Shown: positions 32,640-57,397 of the stretch, piece by piece | Layout: each line of letters starts with the position of its first letter | How positions within the stretch are numbered: the stretch's first letter is position 1 | NCBI GenBank assembly: GCA_017524615.1 | Contig: JAFXVJ010000018.1 | Span: forward strand, 16,466 to 80,465 | DNA from: Clostridia bacterium | GTDB taxonomy: Bacteria > Bacillota > Clostridia > Christensenellales > Aristaeellaceae | Reading direction: 5' to 3' | Length of the DNA: 64,000 nt | Translations under genes and position numbers: made by a program | Notes under the pieces: generated by a model | Told to the model about the DNA's origin: nothing | The model's input: only the letters and a program-made list of their open reading frames with translations | Database searches by the model: none

Positions 32640-33407
32640 CTATGAAGAGAAGAACCGGAATAACCGTTTTCTGTCAGGCGACGCCGCCTGCACGTAAATT
32701 GCCGTCACATTGTCCCGCCCGCCGTTTTCCAGCGCCCGGGCCATCAGCTGCCGCACGGCTTCCCGTGGCGGCATGGAGGATAGGACAGCCTGAATCCCGC
32801 CCGCCTCCACCATATCCGTCAGCCCGTCGGAGCACAGCAGATATCCATCCCCCGGCAGCACTTCCGTTTCTGTGATCTGGGGTTCCAGCCGCATTTCCGT
32901 TTCCGGTATGCCCAGAAACTGAAACAGCGGCGGCTTCATGCCGGGATATCCCGGCATCACGTGATCCACGGACAACTGCGTCATGCTGCCCTGGCGCAGG
33001 CGATAAATGCGGCTGTCGCCCACATTGCACAGCCAGGCCCGTCCGGCGCGGAACAGCGCCATGGCCGCGGTGGTGCCGCAGATCTTCAAGCCGTTTTCCG
33101 CCGTAAAGGCGCAGATGGCCCGATTGGCTTCCAAACAGCACTGCAGCAGGGCCTGCCCTTTCCCGCCGGGATCCGTTACCGACGCATGCTGCGCCGCGAG
33201 AAAGGAGGCAGCCTCTCCCCGCTGTTCGCCGCCCATGCCGTCAAAAACGCCGAATAGCGCGCCTGCCTGATCCTGAACGGCGCCGCTGATCACGTCCTCC
33301 GTGCCCATGGAGCCCATGGGCAGATAATGACCCAGGCAGATCAAATTGTCCTGATTCATCCGCCGCACGTTTCCCTGATGGCTGGCATACGCATAGCTCA
33401 GCTCCAT
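32640..33407 (-). CDS. PP2C-family protein phosphatase
   Basis: The product is 256 residues from the ATG at 33407; AGGAGG is 14 bases upstream. An ATG at 33494 would add 29 residues and overlap the upstream gene, but has no clear ribosome site. Metal motifs are intact: GNVRRMNQDN, GVFDGMGGEQRGE, LLCSDGLTDMV and GGRDNVTAI. These enzymes remove phosphate from Ser/Thr and antagonise PknB-type kinases. It lies between the pseudokinase gene and the kinase gene, with 69 bases to the latter. Confidence 0.92.
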   Translation of the reverse strand: MELSYAYASHQGNVRRMNQDNLICLGHYLPMGSMGTEDVISGAVQDQAGALFGVFDGMGGEQRGEAASFLAAQHASVTDPGGKGQALLQCCLEANRAICAFTAENGLKICGTTAAMALFRAGRAWLCNVGDSRIYRLRQGSMTQLSVDHVMPGYPGMKPPLFQFLGIPETEMRLEPQITETEVLPGDGYLLCSDGLTDMVEAGGIQAVLSSMPPREAVRQLMARALENGGRDNVTAIYVQAASPDRKRLFRFFSS

Positions 33408-33450
33408 CCGCTTGTCCGCCGCCTCCTGTTTGCTTTCCGCGTTCGCCGCT

Positions 33451-35083: not shown

Positions 35084-35977
35084 TTACTGCCCCAGGGCTT
35101 CCTGCAGCACGGCCAGATTGGCGCGCATCACGTCTTCATAGGCGGTCAGCGCGCCGTCGCCGGTCACCAGGGGATCCAGTTCATACACTTTGGCGCCCGT
35201 GGAGCGGGCGACGGTACGCACGGCCGTGTCGCCATACAGCGGCTCAGAGAACAGGGGCGGATTACCCGCTTCCTTCACCGCCGCGATCACGTCGGACAGC
35301 ATGCGGGAGGATAGGGGCGTGTCCGGATCGGAGGTGACCACGGCGACCACATCCAGGCCGTAAGCCCGGGCGAAGTAAGGGAACGCCTCATGGAAAGTGA
35401 CGATTTTTTTATTGGGCAGGGCGGAAATGGCCGCTGCCAGCTCCGCATCCAGGTCGGTCAGCCGCCGGGTGTACTGGGCGGCGTTTGCGTTGATCCTGTC
35501 CGCCTGGCCGGGCAGCAATTCCACCATGGCGCTCCGGATGTTTTCCACCATCTGCATGGCGTTGTGGGGATCCAGCCAGATATGGGCATTGTATTCCCCA
35601 TGGTCTTCGTCAGCGTGTTCATCGGCGGACAGCAGGGGTACGCCCTGGGCGCAGTCCACCAGCGTCAGGCCGGCGAAACGGCTTTTGATGACGGGCAGGA
35701 AGCTGTCCTCCATGCCGGCGCCATTGATGATCAGGGCGCGGGCCGTGCTGAGGGTGCGCATGTCGCCGGTGAGCAGCTGATAATCGTGGAGGCAGCCGGT
35801 GGAGGGAGGGGTCATGGAGGTGAGGCTGACGCCACTGACGCCGTCCAGCACGTTTTTCGCCAGAATATAGACGGGATAGAACGTGGCCACCACGGTGATT
35901 TCTTCTGTTTCCGCGCCGCAGCCGCCCAAGGGCAGCGCCAGCAGGACGATCAGCAGCAAAGCAAGCAGTTTTTTCAT
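35084..35977 (-). CDS. Zinc/manganese-binding lipoprotein (ZnuA/AdcA family)
   Basis: The product has 297 residues. A lipoprotein signal peptide ends at the lipobox LPLGGC (Cys20 approx). The mature protein is a cluster A-I metal-binding protein: TFYPVYILAKNV, a metal-loop DEHADEDHGEYNAHIWLDP rich in His/Asp/Glu, TFHEAFPYFARAYGL and the C-terminal LDPLVTG. The His-rich loop and HIWLDP favour zinc. The normal first site His is not obvious (TPPSTGCLHDYQ has Cys and His where GxxPH-D is expected). No permease or ATPase gene is adjacent, so it is an orphan. Confidence 0.88.
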   Translation of the reverse strand: MKKLLALLLIVLLALPLGGCGAETEEITVVATFYPVYILAKNVLDGVSGVSLTSMTPPSTGCLHDYQLLTGDMRTLSTARALIINGAGMEDSFLPVIKSRFAGLTLVDCAQGVPLLSADEHADEDHGEYNAHIWLDPHNAMQMVENIRSAMVELLPGQADRINANAAQYTRRLTDLDAELAAAISALPNKKIVTFHEAFPYFARAYGLDVVAVVTSDPDTPLSSRMLSDVIAAVKEAGNPPLFSEPLYGDTAVRTVARSTGAKVYELDPLVTGDGALTAYEDVMRANLAVLQEALGQ

Positions 35978-36188: not shown

Positions 36189-37973
36189 TTATTTCCGTTC
36201 CTTGATTTCCTGCGCCAGCTTGGCGGCGAAATCGGCGATGGAATACACGGTGGTCTGGTCGGTCTCCCGGTCGCGGACGGAGATGTTGCCCTCGGCGATT
36301 TCCTTTTCGCCGATGATGATCATGTAGGGCACCTTGTCCTCCTGGCGGGCATAGCGGATCTTGTAGCCGATCTTTTCGTTGCGGTCATCCAATTCCACCC
36401 GGAAGCGCATTTCCTTGAGCTGCTGATACACCTTTTCTGCGTAATCCATGCTCTTGTCGGAAACGGGCAGCACCTTGGCCTGCACGGGCGCCAGCCACAC
36501 GGGGAAGATGCCCTTGGTTTCTTCGATCAGGTAGGCCATGAACCGATCCAGGGAGCCCAGGATGGCGCGGTGCAGCACCACGGGGGTCTTTTCGACGCCG
36601 TCCTTGTCGATGTATTTGAGGTTGAATTTGGCGGGGAGGCAGAAATCCAGCTGGCAGGTGGACAGGGTGTATTCCGCGCCGACGGCGGGCTTCACGTTCA
36701 CGTCCAGCTTGGGGCCGTAGAAGGCAGCCTCGCCGATTTCCTCGGTGAAGTGGATGCCCAGCTCGGTGAGCACTTCCCTCAGGGCGCTTTCGGCCTTTTC
36801 CCACATTTCATCGTCCTGGTGGTATTTCACCTTGTCTTCAGGATCCCGCAGGCTCAGCACGCAGCGGTAATCGGTGATGTGGAAATCCTTGTAGGTGGAG
36901 AAGATCAGGTCGCACACGGCGCTTACCTCGTCCTTGATCTGCTCGGGGGTGACGAACAGGTGGGCGTCATTCTGGCAGAAGTGACGGCCGCGCTCGATGC
37001 CCTTCAGGGTGCCGCTGGCCTCAAAGCGGAAATCGTGGGCGATTTCGCCGATGCGGATGGGCAGATCCCGGTAGGAATGGGGGCGATTGGCGAAAATGCG
37101 CATATGGTGGGGGCAGTTCATGGGACGCAGCACGAAGGCTTCGCCCTCCACCTCCATGGCGGGGAACATGTTGTCCTTGTAATGATCCCAGTGGCCGCTG
37201 GTCTTGTACAGATCGACGGTGCCCACGCAGGGAGTCAGCACGTGCTGATAGCCCAGCATGACTTCCTTGTCCCGGATATAATTCTCCAACTGCTGCCACA
37301 GGGTATAGCCCTTGGGCAGGAACATGGGCAGGCCGCGGCCCACCAGGTCGTCGGTCATGAACAATTGCATATCCTTGCCAATGCGGCGGTGATCCCGGGC
37401 CTTGGCCTCCTCTACTTCCTTGAGGTAGGCGGCCAATTCGTCCTGGTTGCGGAAGGCGGTACCGTTCAGGCGGGTGAGCATCTTGTTCTTCTGGTCGTTT
37501 TTCCAGTACGCGCCGGACAGGCTCATGAGCTTGAAGGCCTTGAGCGCCTTGGTGTAGCACAGATGCGGGCCCACGCACATGTCGATGTATTCACCCTGCT
37601 GATAGAAGGTGATCACGGCGTCGGCAGGCAGGTCGGCGATGTGCTCCACCTTGTAGATTTCGCCCCGCTCCTGCATCAGCTTTACCGCCTCATCCCGGGG
37701 AAGGGGATAGACCTTGAAGGGCAGGTTTTCCTTCACGATCTTCTGCATTTCCTTCTCGATGGCGGGCAGGTCCTCATCGCTGAGCTTCACGTCGCCCAGG
37801 TCGATGTCATAGTGGAAGCCCTTCTCGGTGGCGGGCCCGTAGGCGAAGTGGGCGTTGGGATACAGGCGTTTCACGGCCTGCGCCATGATGTGGGCGGTGC
37901 TGTGGCGCAGCACTTCCAGTTCCAGTTCCTCGGGGCATTCGGCCACGTGGCCGTCGTTGTAGATGATTTTCAT
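36189..37973 (-). CDS. thrS: Threonyl-tRNA synthetase, form without the TGS domain
   Basis: The product has 594 residues from ATG at 37973, preceded by AGAGGAGG. The enzyme starts directly with the editing domain (LRHSTAHIMAQAVKRLYP; CVGPHL), so the N-terminal TGS domain of about 60 residues found in the common 640-residue form is absent. The catalytic core has PMNCPHHMRIF (zinc Cys), RIGEIAHDFRFEASGTL (motif 2), and VVLHRAILGSLDR (motif 3), followed by the anticodon domain (about 490-594). It charges tRNA(Thr) and is preceded by a T-box leader. The frame is open upstream to 38225, but this runs through the leader and is not translated. Confidence 0.96.
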   Translation of the reverse strand: MKIIYNDGHVAECPEELELEVLRHSTAHIMAQAVKRLYPNAHFAYGPATEKGFHYDIDLGDVKLSDEDLPAIEKEMQKIVKENLPFKVYPLPRDEAVKLMQERGEIYKVEHIADLPADAVITFYQQGEYIDMCVGPHLCYTKALKAFKLMSLSGAYWKNDQKNKMLTRLNGTAFRNQDELAAYLKEVEEAKARDHRRIGKDMQLFMTDDLVGRGLPMFLPKGYTLWQQLENYIRDKEVMLGYQHVLTPCVGTVDLYKTSGHWDHYKDNMFPAMEVEGEAFVLRPMNCPHHMRIFANRPHSYRDLPIRIGEIAHDFRFEASGTLKGIERGRHFCQNDAHLFVTPEQIKDEVSAVCDLIFSTYKDFHITDYRCVLSLRDPEDKVKYHQDDEMWEKAESALREVLTELGIHFTEEIGEAAFYGPKLDVNVKPAVGAEYTLSTCQLDFCLPAKFNLKYIDKDGVEKTPVVLHRAILGSLDRFMAYLIEETKGIFPVWLAPVQAKVLPVSDKSMDYAEKVYQQLKEMRFRVELDDRNEKIGYKIRYARQEDKVPYMIIIGEKEIAEGNISVRDRETDQTTVYSIADFAAKLAQEIKERK

Positions 37974-38132
37974 GGTGTTCCTCCTCTGTTGTGTGATGGC
38001 ACGGCGACGCGTGCTGTGTGCTGAGGGTGGAGGGGGGATAGGCAGAGGGCGGCGCGGCATGCCGAAATTGTCCGGCAGGCAATCCCCTTGCCTTCTGCTT
38101 CCTGTCTCCATCCTCCTTACGGGGAGGGCAAT

Positions 38133-38376
38133 CAAAAACGCCCGTCCCCTCATTATGAAATGAAGGGACGAGCGTGAAATGCGTTTCTTCGCCCGCGGTT
38201 CCACCCTTTTTGCCCGTTTACGCAAAACGGACCGCTTGATGACGCGCTGTATCGGGCGCGACGCGCCGCCGGTCAGGAGGCGGTATTTCCTTGGCGTCCT
38301 TGCGCGCTTGCACCGTCCGCGCGCTCTCTGAAAGGACGGGAGAAAGGAAACGTGTTCTCCGTCATTCCGGGGATTG
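38133..38376 (-). promoter_or_regulatory. T-box leader (threonine) controlling thrS
   Basis: The minus strand holds the universal T-box sequence AGGGTGGAACCGCG (38207-38194), which pairs with the uncharged tRNA end, followed by a terminator hairpin CGCTCGTCCCTTCA / TGAGGGGACGGGCG and TTTTT (38174-38133). A specifier ACC Thr codon is plausible in the AAATACCGCC segment upstream (near 38285), but I did not fold stem I. Uncharged tRNA(Thr) should favour antitermination. Confidence 0.9.
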
Positions 38377-38590: not shown

Positions 38591-39457
38591 ATGCACGAGG
38601 TGGAAGCAAAAGCTCTGTTGAACAGGTGGCAGGGGATGAACCTGTACCGGGGGTGCACCCACGGCTGTGTCTACTGCGACAGCCGCAGTGCCTGCTACCA
38701 GTTTACCCATGATTTTGAGGATGTGGAGGTCAAACGGAATGCGCCGGAGCTGCTGGAGGAGATCCTGCGGAAAAAACGCAGCAAATTCGTGATTTCCACC
38801 GGCTCCATGAGCGATCCGTACCAGCCCTGCGAAAAGAAGCTGGGCCTGACGCGCCGCTGCCTGGAGCTGATCGACCGATATGGGTTCGGCGCGTCGGTGA
38901 TCACCAAATCGGATCTGGCGCTGCGGGATATCGACCTGTTTGCCAGCATCCATGACAAGGCCAAGAGCGTGCTGCAGATGACCCTGACGGTGTCGGACGA
39001 CGCGCTGAGCCGGATCCTGGAGCCCAACGTGTGTACCACCTCCAGGCGCTATCAGGTGCTCAAGGCATTTCAGCGGCGGGGCATCCCGGCCGTGGTGTGG
39101 ATGACGCCGCTGCTGCCCTTCCTGACCGATAGAGAGGATAATCTCCGACGCATTCTGGCCTATTGCTTTGACGCCGGGGTGAAGGGCATTATTTGTTTCA
39201 ACGCCGGCATGACGCTGCGGGAGGGCAACCGTGAGTATTATTATCGTGCCCTGGACCGTCATTTTCCCGGGCTCAGCGATATGTACCGCAAACGGTACGG
39301 CGGCGCGTACGAGGTGCCCAGCCCCCATTGCGCCGCCCTGATGCGCATATTCCGGGATGAGTGCGAAAAATACGGGGTGCTGCACGATCCGGACGCATGT
39401 TTTGCCTATATCGCTGCGTTTCCGGAGCGGCAGAAGCAATTATCCATGTTTGACTGA
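38591..39457 (+). CDS. SPL-family radical SAM protein
   Basis: The product has 288 residues from ATG at 38591 with GGATGGAG upstream; an upstream ATG at 38507 lacks a site. The cluster motif CTHGCVYC (Cys-X3-Cys-X2-Cys) comes early, after NLYRGC, and the SPL-type blocks STGSMSDPYQPCEKK, GASVITKSDLALRDIDL and TLTVSDDALSRILEP follow. These short proteins resemble the catalytic half of spore photoproduct lyase but lack its conserved C-terminal Cys context; they are widespread in gut anaerobes with unknown substrate. It is divergent from the thrS T-box. Confidence 0.88.
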   Translation: MHEVEAKALLNRWQGMNLYRGCTHGCVYCDSRSACYQFTHDFEDVEVKRNAPELLEEILRKKRSKFVISTGSMSDPYQPCEKKLGLTRRCLELIDRYGFGASVITKSDLALRDIDLFASIHDKAKSVLQMTLTVSDDALSRILEPNVCTTSRRYQVLKAFQRRGIPAVVWMTPLLPFLTDREDNLRRILAYCFDAGVKGIICFNAGMTLREGNREYYYRALDRHFPGLSDMYRKRYGGAYEVPSPHCAALMRIFRDECEKYGVLHDPDACFAYIAAFPERQKQLSMFD

Positions 39458-39470
39458 ATGGGAGGAAGGC

Positions 39471-39542
39471 ATGGAGGACGATTTTGTTCGCGCGGCTGGC
39501 CGCAACGATCCGGCAGTCTGTCCGGAATTGGTATCAGCGTGA
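39471..39542 (+). CDS. Possible 23-residue peptide or gene remnant
   Basis: ATG at 39471 has GGGAGGAAGG immediately upstream, 13 bases after the radical SAM stop. The peptide reads MEDDFVRAAGRNDPAVCPEL and three more residues. It resembles the N-terminus of a truncated soluble protein. No continuation was found in other frames that I can identify. Confidence 0.3.
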   Translation: MEDDFVRAAGRNDPAVCPELVSA

Positions 39543-39696
39543 TAGAATCCGGTCGGAAATCGGTACAGATACCCGGGCGCACCGTGCCGGATGGGGGAGG
39601 GAACGGAAGCGGGACCCTCCTGGGCCGCGCAGGCAGGGCGTCATCCGCGCCGATGATCCGGACCATCCGACGGGAATCGCCCGTCCTCCCTGCCGC

Positions 39697-39750
39697 CTCC
39701 AAGCACTCTTTGTCCGGCTTCTCTGTGTACATTCCGTGACGAAACATTCG
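39697..39750 (+). repeat. Dispersed short repeat, divergent copy
   Basis: CTCCAAGCACTCTTTGTCCG and GCTTCTCTGTGTACATTCCG match the order of blocks in the copies at 17202 (minus), 23930 and 45168. Identity is lower than between the others. Confidence 0.4.
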
Positions 39751-40000
39751 CGCATTTTCTTTCATATTATAAAATACGGGATGCAAATGGGTCGCGCGCG
39801 GCCGCTCTCCCGGCTTCTCATCGGCAGAAGACAGGAGGGAGCGGCTGCGTGCTTTATGCCGTGCATGACTATATATAATATAATAAGGAAGAAAACCAAA
39901 AAATGAAGGGCGTGAACCGATCAAAACGAACAAACTATGGTTTGTATGATCATAAAGAATGGAAGATGAAGAAAATTTTTCGAAAAAGTAAAAAAAAAGG

Positions 40001-40029
40001 TTGAAAAAAACAGGCTGTTGGTTTATAAT
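40001..40029 (+). promoter_or_regulatory. Strong predicted promoter with A-tract upstream element
   Basis: TTGAAA (40001-40006) and TATAAT (40024-40029) have a 17-bp spacer. Immediately upstream, GAAAATTTTTCGAAAAAGTA and a run of A resemble an UP element. The region is by far the most AT-rich in the window. Confidence 0.85.
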
Positions 40030-40035
40030 GGCATT

Positions 40036-40250
40036 GTCATTCCGTGTGGGTTTCTCAACCGACGCTTAATGGCGTTATAAAGGTAACCCCGGATACGCCC
40101 GATTTGAGCGAATGATTGCAAGGAAATGCCAAATCGGAGGTGCGTCCCCGGCGATCCCCGGCGATGTGCTTTCCGGTGGCGGCATGATGATGTCTCAGAA
40201 TCCCGGCAAGGGATTCGCATAGAGAATGAGTTGGGGAAAGGAGGATGCTT
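40036..40250 (+). promoter_or_regulatory. Long structured 5-prime leader, class not recognised
   Basis: Between the promoter and the leader ORF lie about 215 nt with clear pairing: GGTTTCTCAACC hairpin, GACGC/GCGTT, and a long stem of CCCGGATACGCCCGATTT (40087-40105) with AAATCGGAGGTGCGTCCCCGG (40131-40150) capped by a 25-nt loop, then a further GATTCC/GGGATT-type pair around 40198-40215. It does not match the riboswitch classes I know by consensus. Confidence 0.55.
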
Positions 40251-40252
40251 CC

Positions 40253-40351
40253 ATGACTCATAAGCATTTTCGTTCGCGAGACCCGACTGTGTGCCTGACG
40301 CACGGTGATCAGGGTTTTACGATAAACAAAAAAGTATTTGGGAGGAATTGA
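40253..40351 (+). CDS. Leader ORF of 32 residues ahead of the Cys-repeat protein
   Basis: ATG at 40253 has AAAGGAGG eight bases upstream, one of the best ribosome sites in the window. The peptide begins MTHKHFRSRDPTVCLTHGDQ and ends NKKVFGRN. Its stop codon (TGA, 40349-40351) lies two bases before the GTG start of the large secreted protein, and the ribosome site of the latter (GGGAGG) is inside it, so translation is probably coupled. It is basic, with no signal peptide. It may be a regulatory upstream ORF rather than a functional peptide. Confidence 0.5.
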   Translation: MTHKHFRSRDPTVCLTHGDQGFTINKKVFGRN

Positions 40352-40353
40352 TT

Positions 40354-42822
40354 GTGAAGAAGTTGCTTGCGATCTTGGCCTTGTTGCTCGCACTGTGTAT
40401 GCTGTGTGGCGTAGCGATGGCTGACACGGACTCTGAAGACGGCGGCGAGAGCTATTTCGACCCGACCCGTATTCACGAAGTGGATGGACACGAAGTTAAC
40501 ACTGATAGCGCGAGAGAAATGCGGAAAGCCACCTGCACCCAAAAGGGCCTCTGGCGCTATGACTGCGAAGACGATCCCACTCATTTCCATGAAGTGTATT
40601 CTCCTGCTCTTGGTCATGATTGGGACGACGGCAAAGTCACCAAGGAACCCACCTGCACCGAAGCTGGCGTTCTGACCAAAACCTGCAAACGCTGCGGCGA
40701 TACCAAGACTGAGCCCATCAAGGCGCTGGGCCATCTGTGGTCTTCTGATGAAGACGGCACCCAGTGGGGCAAAGTGGTCAAGGAACCCACCTGCACCGAA
40801 AAGGGCGAAGCGCTGGACTACTGCAAGCGCTGCGACGTGATCAGGGAACTGCATGATCCCCGCATCATTGATGAAGTCCCCCATTTCTTTATTGCTGTGA
40901 TTGACGCATATCCCACTTGCAAAGACGAAGGCTGGGGCCACTTCGAGTGCGTGTGGTGCGGCTTCATCCCCGAGCAGGCGGATGTTGACAATGGCACTTA
41001 CGATCTGAGCAATGGCGATGATGGCGAACTCACCATCACACTCCCGACCGGCATGAGCGTTACGGTTGGGTATGACAGTGTTTACTTCACGCTTCCCGCT
41101 GATCCCGATGGTCATGATTGGGACAATTGGGTGCTGATCGACGAGGCGACCTGCTACCAGCCCATGAGCTATGTGCGTTGGTGCAAGATCTGCGGCGACA
41201 AGCAGGAAGAAGTTCTGGATGATTATGACAAGCTGTGGGCCTTCGGCTATGACATCGAAGATTTCATGGATGATGGACGGCTCGCTCCCGTGTATGTTTC
41301 CACTTCCCGCCTGGTGGATTGCTTCACCGAAGAAGTGACCCTCACCTGCAAGAATTGCTACAAGCTCAACGCTGATGGCACCGAAGAATTTGCGCCTGGC
41401 CATGATCCCGTTGTTTTCCAGCGTGATGTGACTTCCCATATCTACGATCACAGCGACAAACTGTATAAGAGCGAAGCGGCTGCCAAGAAGGCTGAGCCCA
41501 CCTTTGCCGAATACAAGGCCGCTACCTGTGAAGAAGACGGCTACATCGCTTACAAGTGCATTTATGACGACTCCCTCGCCGCTATCCCCACCGGCGAAAA
41601 CGCCATCAATGCCACTCCTCATGACGAAGACACCTACGATTACGTGGTGATCCCCGCCCTGGGCCATGACTGGTCTGCCTGGGAAGAGCGCTATGCCCCC
41701 GGCGCCGGCGATAACGAATATGGCTATTGGCTCCGTGAGTGCGAGCGCTGCCATAAGACCGAGGAAAAGATTGCCAAGCAGCAGCCTGCCGAAATGTGCG
41801 GCGACAATCACGATTTCCTGGAAACCGAAATCGTTGACGCCACCTGCACCGAAGCTGGCAGCATCACCTACACCTGCTCCAAGTGCGGCACCGAAAAGAC
41901 CGAAGAAATCCCCGCTCTCGGACACAACTACGAAGTTGAAGTCGTGGCCGAGCCCACCTGCTCCAAGGCCGGAAAGCAGCTGCTGACCTGCGCGAACTGC
42001 GGTGATGAATACACCGAAGTGCTGCCGAAGCTGGCTCATACTCCTGAAGTGGTGCCTGCTGTTCCCGTCACCTGCACCGAAGATGGCCTGACCGAAGGCT
42101 CTGTGTGCGCTGTGTGCGGCGAAGTCCTGGTTGAGCAGGAAGTCATCAAGGCTGTTGGCGCTCATGACTACAAGAAGGTCGAAGCTGTTGCTCCCACCTG
42201 CACCGCTGCCGGTAACACCGAAGGCGTCGTCTGCTCCGTGTGCGGCGATGTGCTGGTTGAGGCCAAGGAAGTTCCCGCTCTGGGCCACACTCCCAAGGCT
42301 GTGGAAGGCAAAGCTGCCACCTGCACCGTGGCTGGTCTGACCGAAGGTTCTGTCTGCTCCGTGTGCGGCGAAGTCCTGGTTGCCCAGGAAGAAATCCCCG
42401 CTCTGGGCCATGATTGGGACGAAGGCGAAATCACCAAGGAAGCCACTCCCGAAGCCGATGGCGAAAAGACCTTCACCTGCAAGGCCTGTGGCGAAACCAA
42501 GACCGAACCCGTTGCTTTCGAATTCAACGAGAATCCCGCTTACGAACTGAAAGACATGGCCTACGGCAACAACATGATCACCGGTACCGTGGCTCATGAT
42601 CCCACCACCGTGGAAGCTTCCAAGCTGTATGCTCGCGTCACCGTGTTCTTCGTGGGCGGCACCTACGCTGTGTTCGCTGACTACATCGAGGACGACGTGA
42701 TCAGCATCGAAGTGCATGGCACCGTTCTGGCTGTGTCTGTTGAACTGACCGCCACCAAGAACGTTGTTCCCGGCGATGACCTCGTGGTGTTCGATTCCTG
42801 GGGCGAGTACTACAAGGACTAA
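40354..42822 (+). CDS. Large secreted protein with about eleven Cys-X2-Cys 'ALGHDW' repeats
   Basis: The product has 822 residues from GTG at 40354 (GGGAGG upstream). Residues 1-24 are a signal peptide (LLAILALLLALCMLCGVAMA). The mature protein is a string of 35-50-residue modules of the type PTCTEAG-x-LTKTCKRCGDTKTEPIKALGHxW. Each carries one Cys in the CTEAG part and a Cys-X2-Cys pair, with a closing Gly-His. Modules at about 50-100, 100-150, 195, 270, 390, and five successive ones at 485-710 are clearest; two have lost the Cys pair. The last 110 residues form a beta-rich domain with no anchor motif. The Cys/His spacing suggests small metal- or disulfide-stabilised folds, a known but uncharacterised repeat in Clostridia surface proteins. 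Codon bias and promoter suggest very high expression. Confidence 0.85.
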   Translation: MKKLLAILALLLALCMLCGVAMADTDSEDGGESYFDPTRIHEVDGHEVNTDSAREMRKATCTQKGLWRYDCEDDPTHFHEVYSPALGHDWDDGKVTKEPTCTEAGVLTKTCKRCGDTKTEPIKALGHLWSSDEDGTQWGKVVKEPTCTEKGEALDYCKRCDVIRELHDPRIIDEVPHFFIAVIDAYPTCKDEGWGHFECVWCGFIPEQADVDNGTYDLSNGDDGELTITLPTGMSVTVGYDSVYFTLPADPDGHDWDNWVLIDEATCYQPMSYVRWCKICGDKQEEVLDDYDKLWAFGYDIEDFMDDGRLAPVYVSTSRLVDCFTEEVTLTCKNCYKLNADGTEEFAPGHDPVVFQRDVTSHIYDHSDKLYKSEAAAKKAEPTFAEYKAATCEEDGYIAYKCIYDDSLAAIPTGENAINATPHDEDTYDYVVIPALGHDWSAWEERYAPGAGDNEYGYWLRECERCHKTEEKIAKQQPAEMCGDNHDFLETEIVDATCTEAGSITYTCSKCGTEKTEEIPALGHNYEVEVVAEPTCSKAGKQLLTCANCGDEYTEVLPKLAHTPEVVPAVPVTCTEDGLTEGSVCAVCGEVLVEQEVIKAVGAHDYKKVEAVAPTCTAAGNTEGVVCSVCGDVLVEAKEVPALGHTPKAVEGKAATCTVAGLTEGSVCSVCGEVLVAQEEIPALGHDWDEGEITKEATPEADGEKTFTCKACGETKTEPVAFEFNENPAYELKDMAYGNNMITGTVAHDPTTVEASKLYARVTVFFVGGTYAVFADYIEDDVISIEVHGTVLAVSVELTATKNVVPGDDLVVFDSWGEYYKD

Positions 42823-42856
42823 GAAAACCTATAACTGCTTACGATAAGTAAGAAAA

Positions 42857-42943
42857 GTCAAGTCTTAGGGTAGCAGTTTGTGGACAGGCAAATGAGCAGC
42901 CGATGCAAAGCTTACGTGCTAACCACAGCTGCTACCCTTTGAC
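42857..42943 (+). repeat. Long imperfect hairpin between the two Cys-repeat genes
   Basis: GTCAA...GGGTAGCAG...TGTGG pairs with CCACA...CTGCTACCC...TTGAC across 87 nt, with inner AGCAGC and AAAGC segments. No T tract follows. It may stabilise the 3-prime end of the first message or attenuate read-through. Confidence 0.65.
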
Positions 42944-42981
42944 GTTCAGGGGCTGCTTGAGAGAAATTTGGAGGAGAATAA

Positions 42982-44931
42982 ATGAAGAAATTGATTTGCC
43001 TTCTGATTTCGATCGTGATGCTGTTGATGGCGTGTTCTGCACTGGCTGAAATTTCAGTTTCATGGTCGGATGGAAAACTCACTGTATCTACCACGGATAC
43101 AGAGGGTATGAATATGATCCTGATTGATGGTCAAGATACCGGGAAATTTGTTGGCGATACCAGCCCTTCCCAGGTCTTTTCCGTTCCCGAGGATGGGCAG
43201 CGTCACACTGTGACCACCATTGCCTACTTCGGTGCTACTGGCGGCAGCGCTTCTTTCGTGGCCGGTGTTGCTCCTACGGATGCCCCCACTGAAGAACCCA
43301 CCGAAGCTCCCACCGCTGAACCCACGGTGGAACCCACGGAAGAGCCCACGATTGCTCCCACCGTGGAACCCACTGAGGAACCCACCGAAGAACCCACTCC
43401 TGCTCCCACCGACGTTCCTACGCCTGGCCCCAAGGACGGCCCTCTGGCTGTGTCCGTAATCGGCTATGAAGCCTCCAAGCTCACCTTCTCGGTCAGCAAT
43501 CTGGCTCCCATGCCCGGCGAAGCCTGGATCGATGGCGTCAGCACCGGCATCACCGTGTACAACGGTGTGAACACCATCACCGTTTTCCTGAAGGAAGGCA
43601 CCTACACCCTGACCATTCACGGCAACGGCGAAACCGCTTCTGACATCATCGTGGTGAAGGCTCCCGAAAACCCGGTGATTTCCAATGTCAGCTATGCCAA
43701 CGGCACCCTGAGCTTCGACCTGGATAAGCTGAACGGCCTGGGCGAGATCTGGGTATCCGATCAGAATGCCGGCACCGCGTCTGCCAATGGCCGTGTCAGC
43801 GTCCGGTACGCGCTGGTTCCCGGTGATTATACCGTGATGGTATACGATTCCATGTATGCTCTGCGGAGCAACACCCTGACCTTCCATGTGCACCGTCTGG
43901 TGGCTGCCGGCGAAGCCAAAGCGCCCACCTGCACCGAGGAAGGTCTCACCGCCGGCATCAAGTGCAGCCTGTGCAACGAGATCATCGAAGCGCAGCAGGC
44001 CATTCCCGCTCTGGGCCATGACTGGGGCGAATGGAAAGTCACCAAGGAACCCGGCGTTGGCGTCAAGGGTGAAGAAACCCGCGTTTGCAAGAACGACGAA
44101 TCCCATATCGAGACCCGCGAAATCGACGCGCTGGGCGAAGATTGGGACGACGGCGTTGTGACCAAGGAACCCACCTGCGAGGAAGAAGGCATTCGGACCT
44201 ATACCAGCAAGAATGATCCCAACCTGACCAAGGATGTGGCGATCCCCGCGCTGGGCCATACGCCTGAAGTCATCCCCGCTGTAGAGCCCACCTGCACCAC
44301 GACCGGTCTGACCGAAGGCGAGCAGTGCTCCGTCTGCGGCAAGATCACCAAGGAACAGGAAGAAATCCCCGCGCTGGGCCATATGTATATTTCTCAGCGG
44401 GCTGAATCCCTGACCCGCAAGAAGTACATCTGCGCTCGCTGCGGCGACGTCATGTACATGGATGCGAATGTGGCCATCGAAAACCTGTACGGCAGCATCC
44501 TGCGCAACGCTCTGGGCGAAGATGTGAATTATGTCGCTCAGATGGATGCGGCTGACAACAAAGTGCTGGTTATCACCGCCACGATCGATCAGAACAATCC
44601 TGAATGGGTGTCCGAAATCGGCATGTATCTGACCAAGCAAATCATCGCTGATATGCGCAGCGAAGGTTTCGAGTATGTCAAGTATGTGAATGAAGGCGCT
44701 TCCCTGGTCTTCGCGCTGGACGATCTGAAGGACGAGCTGTATCCGACCAACGATGTGATCAATGAGTATGTGATTACGCTTGATCCTCGGGTCGAGGGCG
44801 GCTGCCTGGTCAGCATGGACGCCACGATTGGCGACAATCAAAAGATTCCTGCCCAGACCTTCATCCCGATGAAGTTGAACTGGAACAACCATGACATCGA
44901 AGTAACGGCTCAGGGCATTTATAACGAATGA
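42982..44931 (+). CDS. Second secreted Cys-repeat protein with Thr/Pro/Glu stalk
   Basis: The product has 649 residues; GGAGGAG precedes the ATG. Residues 1-24 are a signal peptide (LICLLISIVMLLMACSALA; LMAC might also serve as a lipobox). After a short beta domain comes a stalk of PTEEP/PTAEP/PTVEP units (about 95-150), two Ig-like beta domains (about 155-310) and four ALGHDW modules (about 310-470), two of which have lost Cys. The C-terminal 170 residues are an unrecognised alpha/beta domain (AIENLYGSILRNALGEDVN). The domain order stalk, Ig-like, Cys module is surface-protein-like, yet no sortase or S-layer signal is present. It shares modules and style with the upstream gene and likely works with it. 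Confidence 0.82.
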   Translation: MKKLICLLISIVMLLMACSALAEISVSWSDGKLTVSTTDTEGMNMILIDGQDTGKFVGDTSPSQVFSVPEDGQRHTVTTIAYFGATGGSASFVAGVAPTDAPTEEPTEAPTAEPTVEPTEEPTIAPTVEPTEEPTEEPTPAPTDVPTPGPKDGPLAVSVIGYEASKLTFSVSNLAPMPGEAWIDGVSTGITVYNGVNTITVFLKEGTYTLTIHGNGETASDIIVVKAPENPVISNVSYANGTLSFDLDKLNGLGEIWVSDQNAGTASANGRVSVRYALVPGDYTVMVYDSMYALRSNTLTFHVHRLVAAGEAKAPTCTEEGLTAGIKCSLCNEIIEAQQAIPALGHDWGEWKVTKEPGVGVKGEETRVCKNDESHIETREIDALGEDWDDGVVTKEPTCEEEGIRTYTSKNDPNLTKDVAIPALGHTPEVIPAVEPTCTTTGLTEGEQCSVCGKITKEQEEIPALGHMYISQRAESLTRKKYICARCGDVMYMDANVAIENLYGSILRNALGEDVNYVAQMDAADNKVLVITATIDQNNPEWVSEIGMYLTKQIIADMRSEGFEYVKYVNEGASLVFALDDLKDELYPTNDVINEYVITLDPRVEGGCLVSMDATIGDNQKIPAQTFIPMKLNWNNHDIEVTAQGIYNE

Positions 44932-44949
44932 TTTCGCTCAATCAACAAG

Positions 44950-44980
44950 GGGCTGCCGCGAAAGCGGCAGTCCTTTTTTT
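44950..44980 (+). terminator. Rho-independent terminator
   Basis: GGCTGCCGC, GAAA tetraloop, GCGGCAGTCC, then TTTTTTT. Confidence 0.92.
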
Positions 44981-45318
44981 GCGCGCTGATGCCCCTGGGA
45001 ACGGATCGCAGCAGGCGGCGTTGGGCGCGACAGATGGCGGAAATTTGGTTTCACAATGCGTCAGCTTCTCTGGTGCCTCTATCCTCCCGACGGACATATG
45101 CCGTCCGTCCGGCGTAGACGCAGCCTGTGCTGAACGATCATGGGGAGCGTCGCCTGATATTTGCCATCACAAGTGCGTTTTGCCAGGCTTCTCCGGGCAG
45201 TTACGAATATTCTGTGAATTCGAGGATTTTTGCTTGACAGGTATTTATCTCCGTGGTAAAAAACATGTAAATAGTGGGTGAAAAAAGCCCACAAAAATAA
45301 AAAAGGGAGTGTACTTGT
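44981..45318. promoter_or_regulatory. Intergenic region with repeat copy and promoter of the sugar importer
   Basis: No credible coding frame. The dispersed short repeat is at 45168-45214. A consensus promoter follows at 45234-45262: TTGACA, 17-bp spacer, TAAAAA. Upstream are GC-rich imperfect palindromes including CCGACGG/CCGTCCG (about 45087-45110). Confidence 0.6.
45168..45214 (+). repeat. Dispersed short repeat upstream of the sugar importer
   Basis: CACAAGTGCGTTTTGCCAGG and the following CTTCTCCGGG match the core at 23950 and, inverted, at 17247. Confidence 0.5.
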
Positions 45319-46362
45319 ATGAAGAAGATTCTCGCGATCCTGCTGTGCGTACTGATGGTATGCGGCTGTGCCAGCGTGATGGCCGAAGGCCAGAAGGTCG
45401 GCATTTCGATGCCCACCAAGGACCTGCAGCGCTGGAACCAGGACGGCGCGAACATGCAGAAGATGTTCGAAGAAGCCGGTTTTGTGGTGGATCTGCAGTA
45501 TGCCGCCAACGACGAGCAGATTCAGTTGAACCAGGTGACCAGCATGATTAACAACGGCTGTGATGTCGTCATCATCGCCGCGATCACCAGCACCTCCCTG
45601 GGCTCCGCCCTGGATCTGGCCAAAGAAAAGGGCATCCCGGTCATCGCGTATGACCGTCTGCTGATGGCCCATGACTGGGTCAGCTACTATGCCACCTTCA
45701 ACAACTACGCCGTCGGCACCATCCAGGGCTCCTACATCAAGGACCAGCTGGATCTTGATAATGCGGAAGGCCCCTTCAACCTGGAGATCACCGCTGGCGA
45801 TCCCGGCGACAACAATGCGGGCTATTTCTATAATGGCGCCATCGACGTGCTGAAGCCCTACATCGAGTCCGGCAAGCTGGTTGTGAAGTCCGGCCAGATC
45901 GAGTTCTCCGAAGTTGCGACTCCCGCCTGGAAGACCGAGACTTCCATGAACCGCGCCAACAGCATCATCGCCTTCTATGACGACGGCTCCAACATCGATG
46001 CCTGGCTGTGCTCCAACGACTCCACCGCTCTGGGCGTTATCAACGCGCTGGAAGACAACTATGACGGCGAATGGCCCATCATCACCGGCCAGGACTGCGA
46101 CATCGCCAACACCAAGAAGATGATCGCCGGCGAGCAGAGCATGTCCGTGTTCAAGGATACCCGGACCCTGGCTGCTCAGGTTGTCAAGATGGTTACCCAG
46201 CTCCTCAACGGCGAGGAAGTGGAAGTGAACGATACCGAGACCTACAACAACGGCGTCATCACCGTTCCGTCCTTCCTGTGCGTGCCCGTGTTCGCTGATG
46301 TGAACAACTACACCGAGCTGCTGATCGATTCTGGTTACTACACCCCTGAGCAGCTGCAGTAA
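45319..46362 (+). CDS. Sugar-binding protein of ChvE/multiple-monosaccharide type
   Basis: The product has 347 residues with GGGAG upstream. The N-terminus is a signal peptide ending VCGCASVMAEG, with Cys17 as possible lipid attachment. The protein is a periplasmic-binding-protein class I fold: KVGISMPTKDLQRWNQDG, DVVIIAAITSTSLGSAL, VIAYDRLLM and GDPGDNNAGYFYNGAID. These match the ChvE/GguAB multiple sugar system rather than ribose or xylose proteins. Strong promoter and ribosome site and Ala/Asp codon bias suggest abundance. It is the first gene of the importer at 45319-50590. Confidence 0.93.
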   Translation: MKKILAILLCVLMVCGCASVMAEGQKVGISMPTKDLQRWNQDGANMQKMFEEAGFVVDLQYAANDEQIQLNQVTSMINNGCDVVIIAAITSTSLGSALDLAKEKGIPVIAYDRLLMAHDWVSYYATFNNYAVGTIQGSYIKDQLDLDNAEGPFNLEITAGDPGDNNAGYFYNGAIDVLKPYIESGKLVVKSGQIEFSEVATPAWKTETSMNRANSIIAFYDDGSNIDAWLCSNDSTALGVINALEDNYDGEWPIITGQDCDIANTKKMIAGEQSMSVFKDTRTLAAQVVKMVTQLLNGEEVEVNDTETYNNGVITVPSFLCVPVFADVNNYTELLIDSGYYTPEQLQ

Positions 46363-46399
46363 TCATTCAAACGCCGGTCTTTGACCGGCACCATTGAGG

Positions 46400-46433
46400 C
46401 GATGCAGGTGGGCCATGCTCACCTGCATCGTTT
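46400..46433 (+). terminator. Hairpin between binding-protein and ATPase genes (attenuator)
   Basis: CGATGCAGGTG, nine-base loop, CACCTGCATCG, then TTTC. The weak T run allows partial read-through and keeps the binding protein in excess of the membrane parts. A second small hairpin, GCCGGTC/GACCGGC, lies at 46373-46389. Confidence 0.7.
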
Positions 46434-46481
46434 CAGAAGAGGACATTGGTTCCCATCTTTAAGGAAAGTGGGAGGAACGCC

Positions 46482-48026
46482 ATGGGCAAGATTCTGCTTG
46501 AGATGAGAAACATCACCAAGACTTTTCCGGGTGTCAAAGCGCTTGACAACGTGAATCTGCAGGTGGAGGAAGGCGAGATCCACGCGCTGGTCGGTGAGAA
46601 CGGCGCGGGAAAGTCTACCCTGATGAACGTGCTGAGCGGGATCTATCCCCATGGGACGTATGAGGGAGACATCGTTTACGACGGAGAAGTCTGTAAGTTT
46701 TCGAAGATCAAGGATTCCGAGAAAAAAGGCATCGTCATCATTCACCAGGAATTGGCCCTGGTGCCGGAGATGACCATCGGCGAAAACATGTTCCTCGGCA
46801 ATGAGCAGGGGCACAAGTTCGCCATCAACTGGAACAAAACCTATGCGGAGGCCGACAAGTACCTCAAAATGGTAGGCCTCACAGAGAGCTCCAAGGAGCA
46901 GATCAAGACGATCGGCACCGGCAAACAGCAGCTGGTCGAAATCGCGAAGGCGCTGGCCAAGAAGGCCAGGCTGCTGATTCTGGACGAGCCGACCTCGTCT
47001 CTGAACGAAGAAGACTCCCGCGCACTGCTGGACCTTATGCTCAGCTTCAAGAAGCAGGGAATGACCATGATCATCATTACCCATAAGCTGAACGAAGTGT
47101 CCTATGTGGCGGATAAGATTACGGTTATTCGCGACGGCGCCACCATCGAGACCATCGACAATCATGGTGCGGAGCCGGTCAGCGAAGAGCGGATCATCAA
47201 GGGCATGGTTGGCCGCGAGATCACCAACCGTTTCCCCAAGCGCCCCCACGTTGTTCCCGGGGACGTCAAGATGTCGGTCCGCCACTGGACCGTGCGCCAT
47301 CCGCTTTACCCGGAGCGCAAGGTGGTGGATGACGTATCGGTATATGTCCGCGAGGGCGAGGTCATCGGCATTTACGGCCTGATGGGTGCCGGGCGGACGG
47401 AGCTGGCCATGAGTATTTTCGGCCAGAGCTATGGCGTTGGCTTCTCCGGCGAGCTGGAGCTTGACGGAAAGCCCGTCAAGATACGCAAGAGCGTCGCGGA
47501 CGCCATCAAGCACAAGATTGCCTACGTTACCGAGGACCGCAAGGGCAACGGCCTGATCCTGAGTAAATCAATCACGGTCAACACGACGCTGGCCAATCTC
47601 GACGCCGTCTCCAGCCACACTGTCATCGACGGGGACAAGGAGTTTGCGGCCGCGGAGGAATACCGCGGCAAGCTGCAGATCAAGACGCCCTCCGTGGAGC
47701 AGCTGGTGGGCAACCTGTCCGGCGGCAATCAGCAGAAGGTGCTGCTGGCCAAATGGATGTTTGCCGAGCCGGATATCCTGCTATTGGACGAGCCGACCCG
47801 CGGCATCGACGTGGGCGCCAAGTATGAGATCTACTGCATCATTAACGACCTGGCCGCAGCCGGCAAGAGCGTTGTGATGATCTCCTCCGAGCTTCCCGAG
47901 GTGCTGAACATGAGCGACCGCGTTTACGTCATGAATGAAGGCAAAATCATCGACGAGGTCAAGGCTTCGGAGGCGTCCCAGGAGAGCATCATGGCAGCGA
48001 TCATCCGATCCGGAAGGGGGGCGTAA
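46482..48026 (+). CDS. Sugar ABC transporter ATP-binding protein, two ABC domains (MmsA/GguA-like)
   Basis: The product has 514 residues from ATG at 46482 (GGGAGG upstream). Domain one has [10 protein letters not shown], signature [14 protein letters not shown] and [11 protein letters not shown]. Domain two has the degenerate Walker [11 protein letters not shown], signature [14 protein letters not shown] and [12 protein letters not shown]. Degenerate second P-loops are normal in this family. It powers the importer together with the permeases at 48029 and 49388. Confidence 0.95.
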
Positions 48027-48028
48027 CG

Positions 48029-49366
48029 ATGAGTGAGCAAGTAAAAAAGTCCCCGCTGAAAGAGCCGCTCAGCTTCGGCCCGAAGGTGGGCAGCTTTCTC
48101 CGTAAATACACCATGGTCCTCGCGCTGGTGGCGGTGGTCATCGCCTTCGGCGTCCTGGTGGATCCCAAGAACAGCATCCTTTCCAACAAGAACCTGACAA
48201 GCCTGATCACAGCAAATACTTACGTCTTCATCCTGGCAACCGGTATGCTGCTGTGCATCCTGACCGGCGGCAACATCGACCTTTCCGTCGGCGCGGTGGT
48301 GTGTCTGGCCGGCGCAGTGGGCTGCATCATACTGGAAGCCAAAATGAACATGTGGCTGGCTGTACTGGCCATGATGGGTATCTGCCTGGTCATCGGCGTG
48401 TTCCAGGGCTTCTGGATCGCCAAGATCCGGGTGCCGGCGTTCATTGCAACGTTGTCAGGCTTTTATGCGTACCGCGGAATTGCTTCCTGGATCATGAAGG
48501 GTGAGTCCCACGTCGGTATGATCGACAAGGATTCCGCGTTCATCAAGTATTTCGGCAGCTACAACAACAGCTATGTGTCCTCGGTTCTCAAGGGCTGGTT
48601 CCCGGCCCTGGAACAGTCGGCGAAAGACGGCTGGATCGCGAATACGGAGAAAATCTTCACCAGTGAGAACGCGCTGTTCAAGTCGTTCCTGTTCGGCGTC
48701 AACAACACAAAGAGTTTTGATGTCATCAGCTTCCTGATCGGCCTGACGGCCGCGCTGATTTTCATTGTGCTGATGATCCGCAAGATCATCGTCCAGAAGA
48801 AACTGGGCATCAAGCAGTCCATCCCGGGGCAGATCATCACCACCGTGATCGTCTCCCTCGCCATTGTCTGGCTGAGCCTTGCCCTGAGCTACTACAAGGG
48901 CTTCCCGATGGTGCTGGTTTGGATTCTCCTGGTGCTGGGCGTGTACGCCTACATCACCAACCGGACCGCCATGGGCCGTCACCTGTACGCTGTGGGCGGC
49001 AATGAAAAGGCCACCGCGCTCTCCGGCATCAAGACCCGGAACGTCTATTGGTTCGCCTACGCCAACATCGGCCTGCTGGCCGGCCTGGCGGGCGCCCTGA
49101 CGGCGGGCCTCAACAAGGGCATTGACCCCAAATACGGTGAGGGCTACGAGATGGACGCCATCGCCGCGTGCTTCATTGGCGGCGCTTCCGCCTACGGCGG
49201 CACCGGCAAAGTGTCCGGTATGATCATCGGCGCCATCCTGATGGGCGTCATCAACAAGGGCATGGACCTGAACGGTGTGGAAGACCCCTACAAGAAAGTG
49301 GTCAAGGGCCTCGTTCTGCTGGCAGCCGTGCTGTTCGACGTGCTCTCGAAGCGGCGCAAGCGCTGA
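48029..49366 (+). CDS. Multiple-monosaccharide ABC transporter permease (GguB/MmsB-like), first copy
   Basis: The product has 445 residues, with about ten membrane segments and the BPD_transp_2 core (LTGGNIDLSVGAVVCLAGA; SGFYAYRGIASWIM; AVGGNEKATALSGI; EMDAIAACFIGGASAYGG). An insertion of about 80 residues (about 165-245) before the mid-protein helix makes it longer than the second permease. It starts three bases after the ATPase stop. Confidence 0.93.
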   Translation: MSEQVKKSPLKEPLSFGPKVGSFLRKYTMVLALVAVVIAFGVLVDPKNSILSNKNLTSLITANTYVFILATGMLLCILTGGNIDLSVGAVVCLAGAVGCIILEAKMNMWLAVLAMMGICLVIGVFQGFWIAKIRVPAFIATLSGFYAYRGIASWIMKGESHVGMIDKDSAFIKYFGSYNNSYVSSVLKGWFPALEQSAKDGWIANTEKIFTSENALFKSFLFGVNNTKSFDVISFLIGLTAALIFIVLMIRKIIVQKKLGIKQSIPGQIITTVIVSLAIVWLSLALSYYKGFPMVLVWILLVLGVYAYITNRTAMGRHLYAVGGNEKATALSGIKTRNVYWFAYANIGLLAGLAGALTAGLNKGIDPKYGEGYEMDAIAACFIGGASAYGGTGKVSGMIIGAILMGVINKGMDLNGVEDPYKKVVKGLVLLAAVLFDVLSKRRKR

Positions 49367-49387
49367 CACAGGAAGGAGGACAAAACA

Positions 49388-50590
49388 ATGGAAAGCAAAT
49401 CGGTTTTTGCCGTTCTGAAAAAGAACGTCATGCTCATTGTCCTGGTTCTTGTGTTTGTGCTGTTTGTGATCCTCACCCACGGCGGCTTCTTCAGCGCGAA
49501 CACCTTCACCGATCTGGTCAAGAACAACGCCTACGTCTTTATCCTCGGCGCGGGCATGCTGATGTGCATGCTGACCGGCGGCAACATTGACCTGAGCTGC
49601 GGCTCGACGGTCTGCATGTTCGGTGCGCTGGGCGCCTTCTTCATGTCCACCAACAAAGGCACGCTGGAAAATCCGATCAACGTGCTGAATCTGGGCGTGC
49701 CCCTGTCCATCCTGATGATGCTGGCCATCGGTTTTGCCTATGGCTCGCTGCTGGGGTTCCTGATCGCCTATGTGCGGATCCCGCCGTGGATCGCTACCCT
49801 GACCTTCTTCCTGGCTTTCCGCGGTCTGGGCACGGCGCTTCTGAACTGGGCCAATCCAACCGATAAAACCCTCGCCTACCTGCCGGAATCCTTCCTGCAG
49901 ACCTTCTACAAAGGTGTCCTTTTCCCGACCGAAGGGTTCAACTGGCCATGCTTTGTCATTGGCCTGCTGGCAGCCGGCGCGGTCGTCTTCCTGCTGTTCT
50001 TCAGCCGGAAAAAGCGGATGGAGAAGGGCTATTCAGTCGAACCCATGTACATGACCTGCCTCAAGGGCGGCCTCAGCGCCGCCGGGATCATCCTGCTGAT
50101 GACCCAGTTGGCCATGGACAAGGGCCTTCCGGCACCGCTGCTGTGGGTGGTGGGCATCATCCTGATCTACTATTTCATCACCAGCAAGACCACCATCGGC
50201 CGCCATTTCTATGTGGTGGGCAGCAACATGGAGGCCGCGCGTCTCTCCGGCGTCAACACCCGCCGGATCATGTTCCTGGCCTATCTGAACATGGCCATCC
50301 TGTCTACCCTGGCTACCATGATCAACATGGCGCGTTTCCAGACCGCCATGCCAAATGCCGGCCTGAACTATGAGATGGATGCCATTGCGGCCTGCGTGGT
50401 GGGCGGCGTGTCCGCCAGCGGCGGCGCGGGCACCATCATCGGCATGGTCATCGGTGCAACCCTCATCGGCGTCATCAACCTTGGTATGATCGCGGTCAAC
50501 CTGGACCAGCACTTCCAGTACATCGTCAAGGGCTTCGTGCTGCTGGCCGCCGTTGTGTTCGATATCCTGTCCAAAAAACGTCAAAAGTAA
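49388..50590 (+). CDS. Multiple-monosaccharide ABC transporter permease, second copy
   Basis: The product has 400 residues, preceded by AAGGAGG. It is clearly paralogous to the preceding permease (MLTGGNIDLSCGSTVCMFGA; VVGSNMEAARLSGVNTRR; YEMDAIAACVVGGVSASGG). Most GguB/MmsB operons have one permease that forms a homodimer; two suggests a heterodimer. It ends the core importer. Confidence 0.92.
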   Translation: MESKSVFAVLKKNVMLIVLVLVFVLFVILTHGGFFSANTFTDLVKNNAYVFILGAGMLMCMLTGGNIDLSCGSTVCMFGALGAFFMSTNKGTLENPINVLNLGVPLSILMMLAIGFAYGSLLGFLIAYVRIPPWIATLTFFLAFRGLGTALLNWANPTDKTLAYLPESFLQTFYKGVLFPTEGFNWPCFVIGLLAAGAVVFLLFFSRKKRMEKGYSVEPMYMTCLKGGLSAAGIILLMTQLAMDKGLPAPLLWVVGIILIYYFITSKTTIGRHFYVVGSNMEAARLSGVNTRRIMFLAYLNMAILSTLATMINMARFQTAMPNAGLNYEMDAIAACVVGGVSASGGAGTIIGMVIGATLIGVINLGMIAVNLDQHFQYIVKGFVLLAAVVFDILSKKRQK

Positions 50591-57361: not shown

Positions 57362-57397
57362 GGGCACCTCCAAGGAAAACAGAAATAGAATGAATGG

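Follow-up and report, generated by a model that had tools for sequence, protein, structure and literature searches.

A conserved leader peptide core that overlaps a predicted RNA hairpin ahead of two secreted Cys/His-module proteins in one genus of Clostridia

The locus and the question

What does a short open reading frame (ORF) with strong expression signals do in front of two large secreted proteins built of unnamed Cys/His modules? The question is raised by positions 40,001 to 44,931 of a 64,000-nucleotide stretch of the Clostridia bacterium assembly GCA_017524615.1, lying on contig JAFXVJ010000018.1 (contig C30, in our numbering, of a 2.55-Mb draft genome); this whole stretch is called the window below. 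Here, a near-consensus promoter is followed by an untranslated leader, a 32-codon leader ORF and the genes of the secreted proteins p1 and p2. An earlier, sequence-only reading of the window had described this layout, and all these features are indeed found at the places it gave. Comparison with related genomes shows that the promoter, the Shine-Dalgarno (SD) sequence, the leader ORF, a hexapeptide core (RSRDPT) within it, two predicted hairpins and the gene order are conserved. The explanation that we favor, by analogy and with a probability of roughly 40%, is a ribosome-pausing leader, similar to the ermC-type 5' stabilizers, that would protect or tune the long mRNA of the secreted proteins.

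An invariant hexapeptide in the leader ORF

The locus was compared across ten genomes of one genus (29 genomes), namely, that of the window (G000), G004, G005, G007, G010, G013, G016, G019, G020 and G023. These genomes are 65–95% complete, several are fragmentary, and by eye they represent about five independent lineages. Homologues of p2 led to nine loci (eight, plus that of G013 on another contig), and R2, a model of the leader ORF, led to the tenth, in G023; because R2 was built from the other eight loci, G013 and G023 are held-out finds. In G016, a sensitive local search located the promoter and leader ORF on contig L004 and the p1–p2 junction on contig L108.

The leader ORF (MTHKHFRSRDPTVCLTHGDQGFTINKKVFGRN; 40253..40351, + strand) encodes the peptide RSRDPT (codons at 40271..40288, +), which is identical in all ten loci. 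Six of the 18 underlying nucleotide sites vary, all of them synonymously, out of eight that could do so; the probability that six randomly placed variable sites would all be synonymous is 0.0015, a figure to be taken as a guide only because the sites are treated as exchangeable and the loci are related. The first Arg is encoded by CGT, CGG or AGA, Ser by TCG, the second Arg by CGA, AGG or AGA, Asp by GAC, Pro by CCG, CCC or CCT, and Thr by ACT, ACC, ACA or ACG. Outside the core, nothing else in the leader ORF was seen to be fixed across lineages. The ORF spans from 11 to 35 codons, with the stop directly after the Thr of the core in G020 and G005, and in G016 the frame runs into p1 without a stop. 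The spacing between RSRDPT and the p1 start is nevertheless steady, at 64–75 nt in the ten loci.

The sequence-only reading credited the leader ORF with one of the best ribosome-binding sites of the window. AGGAGG (40239..40244, +) ends 8 nt before the ATG and precedes the leader ORF in 10/10 loci. In G000, G016, G023 and G005, the core starts with residue 7, counted from an in-frame ATG 8 nt after AGGAGG. The other six loci form a clade in which the in-frame start comes 9 nt after AGGAGG (ATG in G020, TTG in five), with the core beginning at residue 6; in the five TTG loci, an ATG 12 nt after the SD is an alternative start, from which the core would begin at residue 5.

The exact pattern FRSRDPTV occurs in 2 of 300 genomes of the family but is too strict a query because Met or Lys precedes RSRDPT in most loci. 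No mention of RSRDPT was found in the literature searched, nor any work there that joins leader peptides, secreted proteins and clostridia.

A predicted hairpin formed by the core codons

The RSRDPT codons make up the 5' arm of a hairpin (40274..40322, +) that is predicted in all ten loci. When the core is folded together with the next 40 nt, 13–16 of its 18 nt pair with downstream positions in each locus, compared with means of 5–10 after shuffling of these 40 nt. The z values of the hairpin are −2.6 in G000, −3.2 in G016, −5.0 in G023 and −5.8 in G005. Five lineages (grouped by eye, with no tree) keep it with differing 3' arms, and the last base of the second Arg codon, for example, stays paired as G-C, G-U or A-U.

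Two switch mechanisms that such a hairpin could serve were tried and rejected. With a ribosome placed on RSRDPT, the computed accessibility of the p1 SD increases by 0.03–0.13 in six loci and decreases by 0.01–0.09 in four; shifts this small and of both signs do not fit SD attenuation. An intrinsic transcription attenuator was discarded because no terminator-like site lies on the + strand between 39753 and 44951 of the window, and only four loci (G000, G007, G013 and G020; stems read by eye) have U4 runs that overlap the hairpin base. Given these four runs, a weak attenuator in some lineages is possible.

A second predicted hairpin between p1 and p2

Another RNA structure, spotted through 73% identity over 114 nt with G016, lies between the two protein genes (42854..42950, +; core 42866-42944; z −5.4). 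It is present in 9/9 loci, with 31 consensus pairs of which 90.9% are standard. Eight pairs carry compensatory changes, with both sides altered, compared with 2.2 in shuffles, none of 500 shuffles reaching this number. The consensus also contains a second small helix that includes the p2 SD, UUUGGAGGA (42953..42978, +), partly gapped in the genome of the window; one of its cells is changed on both sides. R3, a model of the intergenic hairpin built from the nine loci, identifies a single such site per genome in 9 of the 308 family genomes (E ≤ 1.6e-12), with weaker matches from E 3e-4 up, including G199 and G346; the hairpin was not found in G023, whose contig is short. A repeated or mobile hairpin was rejected as well: the strong matches amount to one site per genome, and the second matches (E 1e-9 to 6e-5) represent this site read from the opposite strand.

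Possible function of the leader

According to excerpts of PMC3997798, long mRNAs of Bacillus are stabilized by 5' leaders that carry either a stalled ribosome, as on the ermC stall sequence, or a strong SD. The present locus could work along similar lines. Translation of the leader ORF, the pausing, its effect on the mRNA and a modulating signal are what we infer. The locus would be transcribed into a three-cistron mRNA for the leader peptide, p1 and p2. The strong promoter and the strong SD would load ribosomes on the leader ORF, and within 5–7 codons, a ribosome would reach RSRDPT, with its R-X-R motif, its Arg, Ser and Thr codons, most of which are rare, and its coding sequence serving as the hairpin arm. 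The ribosome would pause there, and a ribosome paused on a strong SD could shield the 5' end of the mRNA from 5'-to-3' decay and so set the yield of p1 and p2. The intergenic hairpin probably sets their relative yield via mRNA stabilization or processing. Codon rarity was judged on the genome of the window only: in 20 genes of the window, AGA, CGA and AGG account for 1.5%, 2.6% and 6.2% of Arg codons, TCG for 9.9% of Ser codons and ACT for 4.6% of Thr codons.

Several observations weigh against this explanation. Some core codons are common in the window genes, namely, CGG for the first Arg (G016 and G023), ACC (G016) and ACG (G005). In six of the ten loci, which come from close relatives, the z values of the core hairpin are just −1.1 to −2.1. 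The untranslated part of the leader is not generally more stable than expected by chance (n = 10): z is below −2 over the whole leader only in G016 and G023, and over its first 50 nt only in G000 and G004. As for the intergenic hairpin, sliding it by 1–3 columns retains 1–5 pairs changed on both sides (against 8), with 42–56% of the cells still pairing, and the covariation term of RNAalifold is slightly unfavorable, at +0.44 kcal/mol.

Among the alternatives, the one that survives best, while still unlikely, is an arrest leader of the ErmDL/MefAL type, in which a small molecule binding in the tunnel, or another signal, would stall the ribosome at R-S-R, and refolding of the mRNA or antitermination would switch p1–p2. 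The likeness between RSRDPT and the macrolide leader ErmDL (MTHSMRLRFPTLNQ, as given in excerpts of PMC10314930) is striking at the sequence level, both containing R-X-R-X-P-T, although ErmDL was picked out from among many known leaders. In the clade of six, the register also equals that of ErmDL (residues 6–11) if translation starts at the codon 9 nt after the SD; in the remaining four loci, the core comes one residue further on, and R-S-R would begin at residue 5 if the five TTG loci used the ATG at 12 nt. The U4 runs at the hairpin base in four loci speak for this explanation, but the other six loci lack them, the accessibility of the p1 SD moves in opposite directions in six and four loci, and no resistance gene lies downstream. 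The doubt about the start codon lowers the odds of this explanation and the U runs raise them, so they were left unchanged.

Rather improbable is a hairpin that functions as RNA alone, by binding a protein or through mRNA stability, with the leader ORF as a by-product. The extensive pairing of the core in all ten loci would fit, as would the invariant third positions of TCG and GAC. Such a hairpin, however, does not account for the synonymous nature of all the variable sites, including CGN-to-AGR changes at first codon positions, or for the retention of AGGAGG with an in-frame ATG or TTG 8–9 nt behind it in 10/10 loci.

The sequence-only reading had favored coupling: the leader ORF would simply couple translation to p1, or provide spacing, and thereby increase initiation there. 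In the window, 2 nt separate the leader stop from the GTG of p1. Across the loci, the distance from the leader stop to the p1 start is 2 nt, fused, 54, 61, −4, −4, 31, 31, 68 and 40 nt. Thus, the stop touches or overlaps the start, within 4 nt, in three loci (G000, G010 and G019), lies 31–68 nt upstream in six, and is missing from the fused frame. Moreover, p1 has an SD of its own (GGGAGG, 40340..40345, +; GGAGGA before the p1 start in 10/10 loci), and coupling does not need a fixed RSRDPT. Coupling by stop/start contact therefore fails as a general property of the locus, and this explanation appears quite improbable. Finally, a small peptide that acts in trans, with RSRDPT as its essential part, is very improbable, notwithstanding the conservation at the peptide level: only six residues are conserved in an ORF of such variable length, no signal peptide is seen by eye, and the core is tied both to the hairpin and to its steady spacing from p1.

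Distribution of the leader and the hairpins

R2 and R3 match strongly only in one genus, in searches of 308 genomes of the family and 257 of the order. These searches were run with the stricter filters of Infernal, so that weak matches can be missed. In the family, R2 reaches E < 1e-4 in exactly the ten genomes of the compared loci. At E ≤ 1, it matches 130 of the 308, nearly all at chance level; below the ten, only the next two, G003 and G059, were read, and neither has RSRDPT at the matched site. In the order, R2 and R3 find only the genome of the window at E 0.001. The match regions of model R1 in G272, G001, G332 and G028 contain no p2 homologue. The p2 C-terminal domain was traced to seven loci in uncultured Clostridiales or Clostridia assemblies, one of them from water-buffalo rumen; five of the seven are presumably rumen genomes, judging from their RUG isolate names.

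The secreted protein pair

As the sequence-only reading had it, the leader precedes two large secreted proteins with common modules. The first, p1 (40354..42822, +; GTG start), consists of 822 amino acids, with eight Cys3His stretches and a C-terminal domain, and the second, p2 (42982..44931, +), of 649 amino acids, with a Pro/Thr linker, two modules as in p1 and a conserved C-terminal domain. Both N-termini resemble signal peptides, and those of p2 relatives resemble lipoboxes (both by eye). The C..C..ALGH modules shared by the two proteins are written as C-x(8-16)-C-x2-C-x(6-22)-H, with eight such stretches in p1 and two in p2. By manual count, Cys and His occupy 28 of the 59 invariant columns in an alignment of seven p1 proteins, and this Cys3His pattern suggests zinc binding. 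Two domains are retained in homologues of p2, one N-terminal and the other, of about 150 residues, C-terminal. Wherever the contig reaches, the pair follows the leader: p2 in nine loci, and p1 whole in seven and in pieces in G016, G013 and G023.

The sequence-only reading knew of no role for the modules, and none emerges from family models either. No Pfam, NCBIfam or PHROGs family matches p1 above threshold; on p2, the Pro/Thr linker is the sole part for which Pfam exceeds its cut-off, the modules matching no family model, and neither protein has a resistance-gene match in Pfam or NCBIfam. Against solved structures, p1 gives one chance-level match and the profile of the p2 C-terminal domain gives none. 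Among the literature matches listed for the module string, those seen are unrelated. Stretches similar to p2 nevertheless occur in 84 of 100 genomes, including its own, mostly as modules and in some as the linker only; the C..C..ALGH Cys3His modules are common in the order without having a family model. No match was obtained among plasmids with p2 as the query or among viral contigs with the p2 C-terminal profile.

Very high production of the pair had been proposed along with the coupling discussed above. The effective number of codons (Nc) is 35.8 and 37.1 for p1 and p2, at a GC content of third codon positions of 0.67–0.68, and their departure from the codon bias expected from composition ranks second and third among 38 ORFs of the window, which were chosen mechanically; the repeats of p1 contribute to its bias. 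Such bias fits high expression, for which it is weak evidence.

Further occurrences of parts of the pair were seen in two genomes. Behind p2 in G016 (L108:2176-3780), a short protein similar to the p1 C-terminus and a second p2-like protein form a partial tandem duplication of the pair. In G028, in which the leader model finds nothing, the p2 C-terminal region matches inside huge module proteins (C45:7187-7792 and C46:15950-16924, in frames of 1341 and 1146 amino acids). A ZnuA-type zinc-uptake binding protein is encoded in the window about 4 kb from the operon (35084-35977, −), which might be relevant if the modules bind zinc.

Promoter and untranslated leader

The promoter, TTGAAA-17-TATAAT (40001..40029, +; predicted start near 40036), matches the sigma-70 consensus at 11 of 12 positions, in agreement with the near-consensus promoter of the sequence-only reading. 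It is the only sigma-70-like site returned by a scan of 39400-45400. Detection by the scan is no evidence in itself because shuffled sequences yield 3.6 sites on average; the evidence lies in the score and in conservation, TTGA at −35, the 17-nt spacer and TATAAT being kept in 10/10 orthologous loci. Four sites in the window score 11 or 12 of 12. As claimed, no other patch of the window is as rich in AT as the one flanking this promoter at 60, 100 and 150 nt; at 200 nt, it ranks second. An UP-element-like stretch with A-tracts (39951..40000, +; 76% AT over 50 nt) abuts the −35 box, but the AT content of these 50 nt is 72–76% in only three loci (window genome, G016 and G023) and 46–58% in the other seven, so that an UP element is not a general feature of the locus. 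In the clade of six, the block GTTACGGTTCCCTTAAAAA lies about 22–41 nt upstream of −35 (contigs L117, L139-L142 and L161), with a variant in L143 (G005); it was not seen upstream of the promoter in G000, G016 and G023. This block is a possible operator.

The sequence-only reading described a structured RNA of about 215 nt after the promoter. The folding energy of the untranslated leader (40036..40236, +) lies 1.76 standard deviations below that of dinucleotide shuffles, 10 of 200 being at least as stable, so that it is only marginally more stable than expected. Neither its sequence nor its length is conserved among the relatives: it spans 93–104 nt in seven, 117 in one and 174 in one, compared with 201 in the window genome, and is about 100 nt shorter in G016. 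A structured and conserved leader is thus not supported, and the two hairpins described above, which had gone unnamed, are the stronger RNA structures. Leader DNA has no long match among 99 other genomes, the best non-self ones being short stretches in G094 (E 1.4e-4) and G016 (E 8.5e-4); in a local search, blastn again ranked G016 first (1e-5, in the promoter part), and no nhmmer match fell below 0.04. A riboswitch or other cis-regulatory RNA of Rfam was ruled out by the lack of matches at the gathering score in the window and in six related loci, which gave only a tRNA; the best sub-threshold match in 39850-45330 (E 0.023) lies outside the leader.

Genomic neighborhood

Downstream of p2, a terminator-like hairpin is followed by a T run (44952..44968, +), and a sugar-type ATP-binding cassette (ABC) operon comes directly after (45319-50590, +; binding protein, ATPase and two permease-like genes). 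The binding protein of this operon has a 94% identical counterpart in G026, with no p1 or p2 match in the 12 kb around it there. Upstream, on the − strand, lie a cluster (30414-34743) in which a PP2C phosphatase accompanies a protein kinase and a further kinase match that stays under the Pfam cut-off, and a 12/12 promoter, TTGACA-17-TATAAT, at 38410 (−) that faces an ORF similar to threonyl-tRNA synthetase (36189-38225; named by eye). Farther downstream, one of the two most AT-rich patches of the window (57383-57620) is located just upstream of a periplasmic binding protein gene (57620-58597) that has the lowest Nc among the 38 ORFs.

Comparison with known systems

Translation-coupling leader ORFs are small upstream ORFs with their own SD, and the present leader resembles them in this respect but makes stop/start contact in just 3/10 loci. 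The secreted pair itself shares the C..C..ALGH module, secretion and the Pro/Thr linkers with what we take to be Cys/His repeat surface proteins of Clostridia, a group with no family model; here, in contrast, the proteins form an operon pair with a fixed leader core and an intergenic hairpin.

The +X+ leaders are characterized by a short ORF, an SD and R/K-X-R/K near the N-terminus, all of which are present here, with RSR starting at residue 7 (four loci) or, depending on the start codon, at residue 6 or 5 (six loci); a macrolide resistance gene as the target, and a freed SD or bypassed terminator, are not. ErmDL and MefAL have in common with this leader the strong SD and R-X-R near residues 6–8, followed in ErmDL by X-P-T, and differ in that, here, the downstream genes encode secreted proteins, Asp replaces Phe, the predictions give no clear switch through an SD or a terminator, and there is no known ligand. 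It is a speculative and fairly unlikely possibility that RSRDPT represents a new class of arrest peptides with the ErmDL pattern and hairpin-embedded codons, which would sense a tunnel ligand, the supply of arginine or proline, or the speed of translation, and would set the level of a secreted, possibly metal-binding pair in rumen Clostridia. If so, RSRDPT would be an arrest peptide that belongs neither to antibiotic resistance nor to core metabolism. The shortness of arrest and leader peptides makes them difficult to detect, and the comparison singles out, in uncultured bacteria of the rumen, a six-residue core in which constraints on peptide and RNA overlap. Standing before a widespread, unnamed class of surface proteins, this leader would widen the range of genes under leader-peptide control.

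A close parallel to the ribosome-pausing leader that we favor is provided by the 5' stabilizers of Bacillus, the ermC stall sequence and STAB-SD (excerpts of PMC3997798): as in these, a strong SD, here the AGGAGG found in 10/10 leaders, stands ahead of the main ORF's separate SD on a long mRNA. Compared with the Bacillus stabilizers, the present locus is distinguished by its fixed peptide core.

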